Shown here piece after piece: positions 49,020 to 59,889 of a stretch of 64,000 bases of DNA. A model generated the notes under the pieces. It was given only the letters and a program-made list of their open reading frames with translations. It was not told where the DNA came from and ran no database searches. Where the stretch lies: positions 233,731 through 297,730 of the forward strand of contig VXCM01000413.1 in NCBI GenBank assembly GCA_014773175.1, written 5' to 3'. Position 1 is the stretch's first letter; every line of letters begins with the position of its first letter. The DNA comes from Lucifuga dentata (lineage: Eukaryota; Chordata; Actinopteri; Ophidiiformes; Bythitidae). The position numbers and the translations under genes were made by a program.

Positions 49020-49733
49020 GAAAAGTTACAACAAGCAAATGACAAAATTTAAGGAGAGAGAGAGAGAGACAGAGAGAGAGAGTGTCTCACCCTGGCTGCT
49101 CGGTTTGGCCTTCAGGATATAAAACATGATGATCAGGACAATGGCGATGGCCATAATGAAGATGGTTGACATGGCGATAATGAGAGCTGTTGCTAGGTGA
49201 CCCTGACCAGTGGGGTCTGAAACATGGAGGCAATGATGGAAATTAGGCTGGATAATTTGTGTTTGTGTGCATAGTTGCATGCATGCATGTATATGTGTAC
49301 CTTTATATGGATGAGGGAATACAGTTGTGCTGCCAGGGTCACTTGGTGCTTTTCCTGATGCAGCTGCATTGGTCCGCATGCCTGTGAAACACACATATGT
49401 TAGATGTGTCAGAATATTTTGTTCACAACCATTAGACATGGAACTTCAGCCTCCACAGGGTGGGCTGTGATTTAAGTAGAAGATGCATCCCCACTTTCTT
49501 CCAACATTTTCATAATTATGCAGAGTGACCCAAGGGGGGCTTTGGCGTTGCATCTTGTTGATTTAGTGGTGTAAGTGCACATTCAAGATGTTCTGTAATG
49601 TGACAACATAACATCAGTTTTCTGGCAGTAATGCTTCACAAACTAAAATTAGCAGAGATAACAGTTTGTTCTAAAACTCTGACCGCCTCCCCTACAGTAA
49701 ATAAACTGTATATAGAAGATCGTAGTCCAGATT

Positions 49734-51684: not shown

Positions 51685-54600
51685 TGTAGTCATAGTAGTA
51701 GTTGTTGTTCTTGTTGTTGTTCTTGTTGTTCAAGGCAACTGGACTTCTTGTTTCATCTTGAGGACTGATGATGATAGAATAACTAAAAAAGATCTGTCTG
51801 TGTGGAATAAAACTTTGGGTAAAGACATCCCAAAATCAGCTTAATGAATCTAAAAACAAGATGAATTACCTGCCAGACTTTCCATTTTTTTCTGTCTCTT
51901 TGTTCTGCTGAAACTCTCTATCATTATATCTCTCATTTTCTCTCCTTTGCAGCATCATTCAGTCATTCATTTCCATGCCTGGAGAAACAATTAGGGCACT
52001 GTTGAAAAGCGACTATTTGTTCGTACGCACACATGTATACACTCCCTGCTTCTACTCGACGCCTTTTCTCTGCAGGCCCAGGCTGCTTTTTGGGGTTTTT
52101 ATATTTCAAACACTTTCATTAAATATGACACAATAACAACACCATTTATTTCCAGGATCTCCAATAACACTCCAGGGTGCTTTAGCAATTGTGTGGGCCC
52201 ATAAATGTTATTTCCATGGCTGCGTTTATCAATAAAGGACAAAAAAATGCTTAGATACAATTACATCACCGCTTTGCTGGATCAATCAGATGTAATTTAT
52301 CTATCAATCGTGTTACATCTGGACAAGCAGATGGAGAACAGCGATTCACTGTTTTCTCCTTTCTTCAAAATCCTTTTTTTCCTGCTTTAAGTTATTGACA
52401 CTTTTATGCTAGAATGAAGGGATATGTCAGTGGAAAGCAACGCATTCATCTCTGAAACAGATTCAATTCTTACACTGCTAGACAAAATGAATGAAATGAA
52501 TGTGAGCATGGACATTAATATTACAGTTATCTGTCTAATCAGTCTCACATTATGCATTTGAATCTAATCTCGCTCTTCTCACTTTCACGGTCTTTTCACT
52601 GTGTCTGAGGAAAATAAAGAAGGAGATGATAAGACACCTAATGATTTTAGTCATTACGTTTTACATTTTAGACATTTATCTGACACATCTGGAGTGTCTT
52701 TGAAATCTTCTCACTACTTCAATGCTTAGAGAAATGAAAAGCAACCAAAATGAGAGCTTGAGCCCAACGTTCAAAGAGAATTTGGTTGGAAAAAATTTAG
52801 AGGCCATGCAGTTACCTGAAAAATTTAATGGCAAAAGAGTAGCAAAGATTAACTACTCCACACGATGAACATTCAGACAACTTCACACAGTTTGAAGGAG
52901 AAGTTAATAGCAATAAGAATATTTTGCTATGTCTATTTATAATAAATAACACTTTAATGTATGAAATTGGTAGAAATATTTCTATAAGCCAGATACTACA
53001 AACGAGACAGTGATTGTGGAAAAGGGTCAAAATATGTGTGAGGGAATGAAATATTCAAGTACCATATAACATATATTGTTGAAGTTTTAATTAAAGTCAA
53101 GTACATTGACCTAAAACAGGAAAAAAAAATGTTTTGATGAGAGCTGGATTATAAGTCTGCTGCGTTCTGTTGGGTTATGCAGTATCATAAAAATTGCTTG
53201 CATGCCTCTGCTTATTTTTCAATCCTGTTCAAAGAGAACTAAAGAACTAACCTCCTGCATAAATTCATAGCTGAAATATTCCTGTGAAAATAGGATGTTT
53301 AGTCTCATTTAAGCATTAATGTTGCATTTGTGTTTCTGTATATTGGAGATAGTAAAAGTGGCATTTACCTTCTAAAGAGATTCATAGCGGCAAGTAAAAA
53401 AAAAAAAAAAAAANAAAAAAAAAAAAAAAAAACTATCACCAAATGCTGAGAGAGAAACTTTCCTAAATTTTTAGAGTTTCAAAAAAGAAAAGCAGGAGTT
53501 GATATGTGAAGGATGAAAGTAAGAAATGGAATTCTGAAATATGAAAAGTTGCTCTTACATTCTTTGGTGTTGCGTGGTGCGTTCTGGCAGGAGTGGCAAA
53601 CCATCCCGTACAGGTTCCTGGGTCGGTTTTCCAGCATGTAATACCTAAACAAAAAAGATTATTAAAAAATGTCTATTGCTTCTTTATTCTCGTATAATTT
53701 CACTTCCACTATTGAGACCAGGACCTTCATTAGTCTCCTTTCCTGCACCATCAGGGATCCGTTGAAACCCACCCGAATCTGAATTTGACTTTTACACTCG
53801 CATAGCAGAGAAAAGATGACAACAAAAGGAAGAACACTGAAAAAAGCTGTAAAAGGAAAAATTCTTGCAGGGGCTTAAAGCTCATTTTTATCTGTCATCT
53901 GGGCTAGCGCTTCGGGAAGGACTTACCTGCATGATGCTTTAAGACTATTTTCACCTGAATGGAAAGCAGCTGAGGTGAATATTTTGACAGATAATCACCC
54001 CGTCATAAAGTTTAGCCTGAATAAGCTGAACCATGAAATAATCTGAGTTGGAGAATATGATGGATAAATGACTGGCACCTTCACATAGAGTATGTGGATA
54101 TATCTGGATCCAGCGGTCAGCCTCAGGAGTCTTTTTTAGCCCTTTTTTTTTTTTCACCATATGACTGTTGTAGGGATCAGACTTGTGATACTTGGTCTTT
54201 CTGCTACCTGATTTTTTTTTTATCAATTCTTTCTAATTACAGCTGTATCAAGTGATTTTTAGGGGTTTTTCATGGAAAAACATGGTTTAGATGTGTTAGA
54301 TGTGTACAAAAGTTACACAATTATTGAATCTTTCTGTTCCTTTTGTGTTCAAAGTAAGTAGTTCTGCAAATACGTAAGTTGTATAATATCATCTGTGCCA
54401 GACCCATCAGGAGCCAAAGCTATTTGATTATAAAATGTTTATCACCATATGAATTATGATTCAGCAAAATAATCCCTGATTATATTAACAACCACATCTG
54501 AGTAAAACATGTCTCACAACAAAACCATTTAGTTTAAAAATAGACAGTTTATAAAGAATTTGAAATAAACATTAAAATGTAATGTTGCCAGTAAAAATCT

Positions 54601-55886
54601 ACCACAGCAGAGCTGAAATCTCTGGATAAGCTGGAAAATGTTTTGGGGGAAAATGAAGGAGATTTCCTCATCAACTTGGAGTCTATTATTCCACTGTTAA
54701 TCCCAATTACAATAAAAATGCCTCATGTGACCGCCTCGGTTACATGAATTTTCCATTCTTTCCATTTGGAAAGAATTGACTTGAATAATCTGTGTGACAA
54801 TTAAAAATTTTTCATGTATTTGCTCTTTCTGTTTACTTTCCATTTTCAGGATATTGAAGATGTTCTGCGGGGAAGATGCACCACTCTGTCTTCCACTCTT
54901 ACATCTAGTGCTGCGTCTTTCCCAGGAAAACTGTCTTCCAATAAGTGATGTTTTAGTTTGGGGAGATTGGGTGTCGGGGCGGATGCTGCCGATGGCTGGT
55001 TTTAGTTTTGTAACTGCAGTATTTATACCTTCCAGTAAAATTGTGTGTCAGAACAAAAGAACCTCAGTAAACTAATTAGCTGACTGTTTGATGCAGGTCC
55101 ATGTTTTTATCTGTTCATGATGGATGCTGAATACACACTTAAAAACCAGAATCAGACTGATTTCATTTGGAAAGAAAAAAAAACAGCCTGTATAATTGCA
55201 TAAACTGCTAAAGTGCCCTTCAGCAAGGCATTAAACATCAGTGGCCAGTGAAAGACAGTGTGTCAGATTGTGTCCACTGGATATCTGCTGATGAACAATC
55301 GGAAGAAAAGAAAAGATAAGGAAAAATACGGTAGATGTACTTTATTTTGTAACTTGGATTGTCACACGTCTTTAATGAGTGATGTGTGTGTGTGTGTGTG
55401 TGTGTGTTTGTGTGTGCACATTATGTACCCAGATAAACGTGTGTGTGTGTGTGTGTGTGTGCGCATTATGTACCCAGGTAAACATGTATGTGTGTGTGTG
55501 TGTGTGTGTGTTTGTGTGTGTACATGCACATTATGTACCCAGGTAAACGTGTATGTTTGTGTGTGCATGTGTGCATTATGTACCCATGTAAACATGTATG
55601 TTTGTGTGTGTGTGCGTGCATGCATACAGCGTGCATTTTATGTACCCAGGTAAACGTTTGTGTGTGTGTATTATGTACCCAGGTAAACTTGTATGTTTGT
55701 GTGTGTGCGTGTGTGTGTATTATGTACCCAGGTAAACTTGTATGTTTCTGTGCATGCATGCATGCATGCGTGTGTGTATTATGTGCCCAGGTAAACATGT
55801 ATGTTTGTGTGCGTGCGTGTGTGTGTGTGTATTATGTACCCGGGTAAGCTTGTATGTTTGTGTGCGAGCATGTGTGTGTGTGTGTN

Positions 55887-55930
<44 letters not shown>

Positions 55931-56956
55931 GTACCAGGTAAACTTGTATGTATGTGTGCGTGAGTGCATGCATGTGTGTGTGTATTATGTACCCAGGTAA
56001 ATGTGTATGTTTGTGTGTGTGTGTATTATGTACCCAGGTAAATGTGTATGTTTGTGTGTGTGTGTATTATGTACCCAGGTAAACTTGTATGTTTGTGTGC
56101 GTGCGTGTGTGTGTATTATGTACCCAGGTAAATGTGTATGTTTTTGTGCGTGCGTGTGTGTGTATTATGTACCCAGGTAAATGTGTATGTTTGTGTGCGT
56201 GCGTGTGTGTGTATTATGTACCCAGGTAAACGTGTATGTGTGTGTGTATATTATGTACCCAGGTAAACGTGTATGTTTGTGTGTGTGTGTGTATTATGTA
56301 CCCAGGTAAACTTGTATGTTTGTGTGTGTGCGTGTGTGTGTATTATGTACCCAGGTAAATGTGTATGTTTGTGTGTGTGTGTATTATGTACCCAGGTAAA
56401 CTTGTATGTTTGTGTGCGTGCATGTGTGTGTGTATTATGTACCCAGGTAAACAGGGTCCACACTCTGCGTCGCTCTCAGGAGTTCCTAGTACAAGAACCG
56501 TTGCCCGGTAGAGGGCGTCACAATCTTTATGTCTTCTGCAGATCTCGTATTTCCCCTTGGAATATTTTCCCTGTGGGCAGGGCACACAGGCAAAGTCCTC
56601 ATCCTTCACGCCATAGCCACAGATCTGCAAAACACACACACACACACACATACACACTTACAGTGAGACGTGTTCACACAGACTCCGTTCCATTCTAAAG
56701 TTTGGTTATGAGAGCTGACTTTTATCACCTGGTCTGTTTATTCGTGTGCATTTGATATAATGCATTTTAAAAGAGTAACACACTATTCATAATTAATAAG
56801 ATGATTTGTGAGTGTGTTGTGCAAACACACATTCAAGAACACACTCCACACACACAAACACACATCTGTTTCTATCCATATCCTTAACAAATCGGACATC
56901 CCCATTTTTAGACAACAAAAAAAAGAAATTTGATTGGTCACAGAGATCCCTTTGGT

Positions 56957-59826: not shown

Positions 59827-59889
<63 letters not shown>

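Follow-up and report, generated by a model that had tools for sequence, protein, structure and literature searches.

The stretch of Lucifuga dentata DNA analyzed here (the window; 64,000 nucleotides of contig VXCM01000413.1) carries edar on its minus strand, with exons placed from 60.0 to 43.2 kb using human EDAR as a guide. The coding exon at the center of this work (56443..56624, minus strand; 182 nt) encodes ICGYG...CGPCLP plus the GG of the next Gly codon, and we call it exon 3 after the numbering of a preliminary description of this DNA, coding exon 1 not having been located. Its 3' end is ...GGACCCTGTTTACCTGG, followed by GTACATAATACACAC, so that the boundary reads ...CCTGG|GTACAT, and the core of the functional junction, GTTTACCTGG|GTACATAATA, occupies 56433..56452 (minus strand) with the donor G at 56442. 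The next edar exon (53559..53644, minus strand) begins at the acceptor TTTAG|GTATTACATG and completes GGG TAT TAC (G-Y-Y). The 90-residue translation of the two exons joined matched PDB chain 7x9g_C (EDAR) with an E value of 2.3e-45 and without gaps through CLPGYYML, the next-best of 10 matches having an E value of 5.3e-06; the exon-exon join was itself an assumption, and the EDAR match agrees with it. Because this homology includes the Gly-Tyr-Tyr-Met-Leu completed by the exon starting at 53644, as in EDAR, it fixes the position of the functional donor. The exon-adjacent donor is thus the functional one, as set by protein homology rather than by RNA, in agreement with the preliminary description, which had taken the exon-proximal copy of a repeat to be the junction itself. 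A likely linker exon (49270-49420, minus strand), ending AAAG|GTACAC, sits between the 53.6 kb exon and the transmembrane exon, and its donor likewise starts with GTACA.

Behind exon 3 lies a CA-rich array, roughly 1 kb long, with 21 cores in all, namely, the exon junction and 20 intronic copies, which together span 55419-56452 at the place where the array had originally been noticed; TRF delimited the repeat at 55391-56453, with a period of 49 and 22 copies. The unit common to the junction and the 20 copies comprises, with few changes, the last 9-10 exon bases and the first 9-10 intron bases, which bears out the earlier proposal that exon end, donor, and intron start form a single repeated unit. 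The intronic cores (55419..56401, minus strand) have their donor G at 56391, 56350, 56301, 56258, 56221, 56172, 56123, 56074, 56033, and 55992 in the proximal ten and at 55934, 55839, 55786 (GC), 55727, 55678, 55645, 55583, 55538, 55473, and 55428 in the distal ten. A pattern search allowing up to 3 mismatches returned 20 matches, all on the minus strand within the array and 15 of them exact, including the junction, against a chance expectation of 0.07 matches and a maximum of 1 over 100 shuffles. The 18-base core was exact in 14 of the 20 intronic copies, and the exonic 10-mer GTTTACCTGG was absent outside the array on either strand of the whole window. GT was retained in 19/20 intronic copies, the copy at 55777..55796 (minus strand; GGGCACAT; donor position 55786) having GC. 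The copy with its donor at 55934 (55925..55943, minus strand; CTG|GTACAT; donor score 3.38) carries a 1-nt deletion and escapes the ungapped search, the other 19 intronic copies being ungapped. This deletion and a change at +9 in the copy at 55637-55654 come in addition to the altered copies named in the preliminary description. Donor-to-donor distances ranged from 33 to 95 bp, the gapped copy counted, and the spacers were CA-rich, with AAACATACA or a close form preceding the core in most. A long CA/TG run within the array (55871..55927, no strand assigned) holds a single N at 55886, leaving both the length of the run and the array copy number near it uncertain. Rfam at gathering thresholds gave no match in 42-64 kb, and the exact 18-base core had no match in a set of viral contigs, a collection that is uninformative for a vertebrate.

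The donor shared by these copies is weak. With the donor matrix used here, TGG|GTACAT scored 1.86 bits, the lowest of 8 edar donors, a set that leaves out the exon near 44.6 kb; the other 7 ranged from 3.98, in the linker exon, to 10.54 bits. The duplex of TGG|GTACAT with the U1 sequence used here was calculated at -5.3 kcal/mol, and 27 of the 131 GTs in exon 3 and intron 3, two or more array copies among them, outscored it. Changes in the 19 ungapped copies affected 1 of 38 GT bases and 5 of 304 other core bases (Fisher p 0.51), revealing no preferential preservation of GT over the rest of the core in those copies; by halves, 4 of 171 exon-like and 2 of 171 intron-like bases had changed. Nearly every copy had been described as keeping a usable GT donor context; the GT itself is indeed present in 19 of 20, but "usable" was an overstatement for a donor that is weak throughout, the true junction included. 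With so weak a donor, and with the exon body upstream of the junction alone, the decoys would mostly be passed over.

Were the decoys used, the predicted products would differ sharply with position. The nearest decoy (56382..56401, minus strand) would extend the exon by 51 nt, in frame and open, so that a leak to it would add 17 residues, and the second (56341..56360, minus strand; +92 nt) would shift the frame. An in-frame TAA contributed by the intron side of the second decoy would enter the products of all 18 farther decoys, giving a predicted outcome of 1 in-frame, 1 frameshifted, and 18 stop-containing messages. Use of any decoy beyond the first would therefore lower functional edar, and leakage may reduce edar dose on a scale set by copy number.

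The divergence of the cores offers some indication of how the array arose. The most distal copy continues into AATGTGCACACACAAAC(AC)n and then into unique intron, and this AATGTGCACACACAAAC(AC)n is plausibly the old intron start. At +10, the four most distal copies have G, whereas A is found in the junction and in all 15 remaining ungapped copies. Compared over 19 bases, a stretch that takes in +10, the copies differed more from the junction the farther they lay from the exon (Spearman 0.68, p 0.0009, n=20, the gapped copy being compared out of register and counting 6 mismatches), as they did when the gapped copy was omitted (Spearman 0.74, p 0.0003, n=19), and the 18-base core showed 0 changes in the 10 proximal copies versus 6 in the 9 distal ungapped ones (permutation p 0.011). 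Similarity of whole units, however, was no lower for units farther apart (rho -0.035, p 0.32). The spacer of the junction likewise resembled some mid-array spacers as closely as it did proximal ones; the gradient in the core therefore rests on few changes. These few changes suggest that the old intron start is now distant from the exon and that a younger, homogenized part of the array contains the working donor. As its +10 base is the one most copies have and not the G of the four distal-most, the working donor itself has probably turned over along with neighboring copies. The anatomy, in its CA-rich setting, fits the earlier suggestion that the array grew by slippage or unequal exchange, and from this observed anatomy we infer the following order of events. 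An early tandem duplication would have joined the exon edge to a CA tract close to the intron start, making a single unit of the final 9-10 bases of the exon, the donor, and the opening bases of the intron. Slippage and unequal exchange between the CA spacers would then have multiplied and homogenized this unit. The functional donor is whichever copy has come to adjoin the exon body.

Folding predictions raised the question of whether the copies interact in the RNA. Through UACCUGGGUA, a part of the core, one copy can pair with another over 10 bp, two G-U pairs counted, and the core-core duplex was calculated at -13.8 kcal/mol (ViennaRNA). In a predicted fold of 1244 nt, the main partner was another core for 15 of the 20 decoys and mostly spacer or exon for the other five; the main partner of the junction was decoy 55992, and its openness was 0.40, with three decoys more open. 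In local 300-nt folds, the junction was 0.53 unpaired versus 0.28-0.36 for the ten nearest decoys, and across all 20 decoys two were more open than the junction and one was equal. The exon folded without the array gave a junction openness of 0.36, and the array therefore does not clearly alter the openness of the junction. Of 3000 random 20-mers, 6.6% self-paired as strongly as the core, and among five other edar donors three reached -11.2 to -11.8. We offer pairing of the decoy cores among themselves, as these models would allow, as a hypothesis only.

Complementary dinucleotide tracts add a further feature to the locus. A (GT)9 tract (56632..56649, minus strand) just upstream of the acceptor of exon 3 is complementary to the CA tracts of both the array and the start of intron 2, with calculated duplexes of the (GT)9 stretch of -45.7 kcal/mol for the proximal array versus -49.1 kcal/mol for the intron 2 tract. 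Intron 2 holds a (CA)29 tract 8 nt past its donor (59829-59886, minus strand) and the (GT)9 directly before its acceptor; a layout of paired AC/GT repeats is described in a review for zebrafish introns spliced without U2AF2, and edar intron 2, having both tracts, shares it. Intron 3 opens with the CA-rich array but holds no GT tract of at least 6 units, and the lack of complementary tracts at both ends sets it apart from those zebrafish introns.

IFI6 (6-16, G1P3) is an interferon-induced gene with a minisatellite of short in-frame units. That minisatellite was reportedly shown by Turri, Cuin and Porter in 1995 to supply multiple splice donor sites. A later source reports two downstream repeat units as used donors (PMC4526556). 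The edar array resembles the IFI6 case in that its unit consists of the end of the adjoining exon plus the donor, with GT in 19 of 20 copies, though low-scoring; it differs in its 33-95 bp CA-rich units, mostly frame-breaking with a stop and only putative donors, as against the short in-frame units of IFI6 and their reported use. The original judgment that a tandem of near-identical donors is unusual thus stands, but the kind is not unprecedented, as papers citing the IFI6 minisatellite indicate. In UBC, tandem dual-specific splice sites are described (PMC10809524), and there too splice signals are repeated in tandem within one gene; the UBC repeats, however, are coding monomers whose sites double as donor and acceptor, whereas those of the edar array would be donors only, within an intron. 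In human segmental duplications, internal tandem repeats at the borders of exons and introns (PMC2812944) likewise represent minisatellite expansion at such a boundary and are linked to altered splicing; their units are 30 bp on average and four in number, tied to new introns, whereas edar has 20 extra copies and no new intron. The zebrafish edar mutant fang carries a new intronic donor that takes 74% of transcripts in homozygotes and has defective scales and teeth with normal fins (PMC2542418). Both fang and the array place an extra donor within an edar intron, and that of fang competes with the normal one; fang is, by the same account, a single point-mutation donor demonstrated in RNA, whereas the array has many candidate donors. 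Because the fang product is described as truncated past the transmembrane domain, its donor lies in a later intron than the array. A literature search that excluded most subscription journals turned up one seemingly unrelated paper and no publication on an edar splice-donor array, and the titles and abstract openings surveyed held no further direct precedent. The novelty lies in the gene, in units that are long, CA-rich, and frame-breaking, and in the divergence of the core away from the exon; the kind of array is already known.

Taken as a whole, the locus is best explained, in our view and with some confidence, by a duplicated and then homogenized exon edge whose decoys are mostly passed over and whose leaks lower edar dose. 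The readings weighed against it are not mutually exclusive, and the likelihoods attached to them overlap. An ordinary CA-rich minisatellite that trapped the exon edge by chance and leaves splicing unaffected is a serious contender, falling somewhat short of an even chance. CA/TG tracts are numerous in the window, minisatellites are known in fish introns, as in the seabream growth hormone gene (PMC3045353), and GT is no better preserved than the rest of the core, all of which fit such a neutral passenger; set against it is the fact that the donor contained in the unit belongs to a dose-sensitive gene and that the unit immediately follows that donor. It is rather unlikely, conversely, that the array is an active device for splice choice, in which several decoys, mainly the first and perhaps the second, see regular use and yield a receptor longer by 17 residues alongside unstable messages, with array length setting edar dose. 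The GT in 19 of 20 copies, mostly with the donor bases of the functional site, the open and in-frame nearest decoy, and the presence of same-base donors at distances of 51 and 92 nt from the functional junction would suit such a device, as would the downstream donors of IFI6 (PMC4526556) and the sensitivity of edar to an extra donor in fang (PMC2542418). The weakness of the donor, the absence of preferential GT preservation, and a stop within the insert for 18 of 20 decoys, with a frameshift for one more, count against regular use.

Similarly doubtful is a role as a CA-rich enhancer or structural element, whether through hnRNP L bound to the CA repeats and helping a weak donor or through pairing with (GT)9 that favors exon skipping or circle formation. 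The calculated pairing of (GT)9 with the array (-45.7) comes near that with the intron 2 tract (-49.1), and the literature links hnRNP L to CA repeats; duplex energies, however, are silent on proteins and competition, loss of the 182-nt exon would shift the frame, and intron 3 itself lacks a GT tract of at least 6 units. An assembly artifact, with copy number inflated or collapsed, is very improbable. The single N at 55886 inside the long TG run would allow for one, but the spacers vary in both length and sequence (33-95 bp donor to donor), a pattern not expected from repeated mis-joining of one unit, even though the exact number of copies stays uncertain.

This rare arrangement could tune the amount of correct edar message, although most copies look weak and may be ignored. 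A more elaborate version, which we consider a long shot, would make the array a length-variable dosage knob, in which copy number and pairing set the share of correct message, the decoy cores pair off and thereby keep the exon-adjacent donor open, and array copies repeatedly replace the working donor. If this were true, natural array-length alleles would be expected to produce graded variation in scales and teeth, like the single-donor fang mutant. Given the sensitivity indicated by fang (PMC2542418), changes in copy number within edar would readily supply heritable graded variation. Near-identical competing donors would also constitute a natural test of how the spliceosome chooses among equals, with the sequence near-constant and position, exon context, and structure varying, and a working donor would here share concerted evolution with silent copies.

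On the plus strand, the same cores (55419-56452) read CAG|GTAAAC, which scored 7.29 bits with a U1 duplex of -9.6 kcal/mol, a better donor match than the edar strand, and an antisense transcript of the array would contain many such sites. Antisense donors were set aside as an explanation, there being no sign of transcription on the plus strand. A role as a U1 mimic was likewise rejected; UUACCUGG is common to the core and the U1 5' end, but the edar strand has just one CAGGTAAA within 43-64 kb. Elsewhere in intron 3, at 53926 (minus strand), a perfect CAG|GTAAGT donor precedes the next exon by 282 nt and has, 28 nt upstream of it, an acceptor-like TTTCCATTCAG; this site is possibly a microexon or a recursive splice site.
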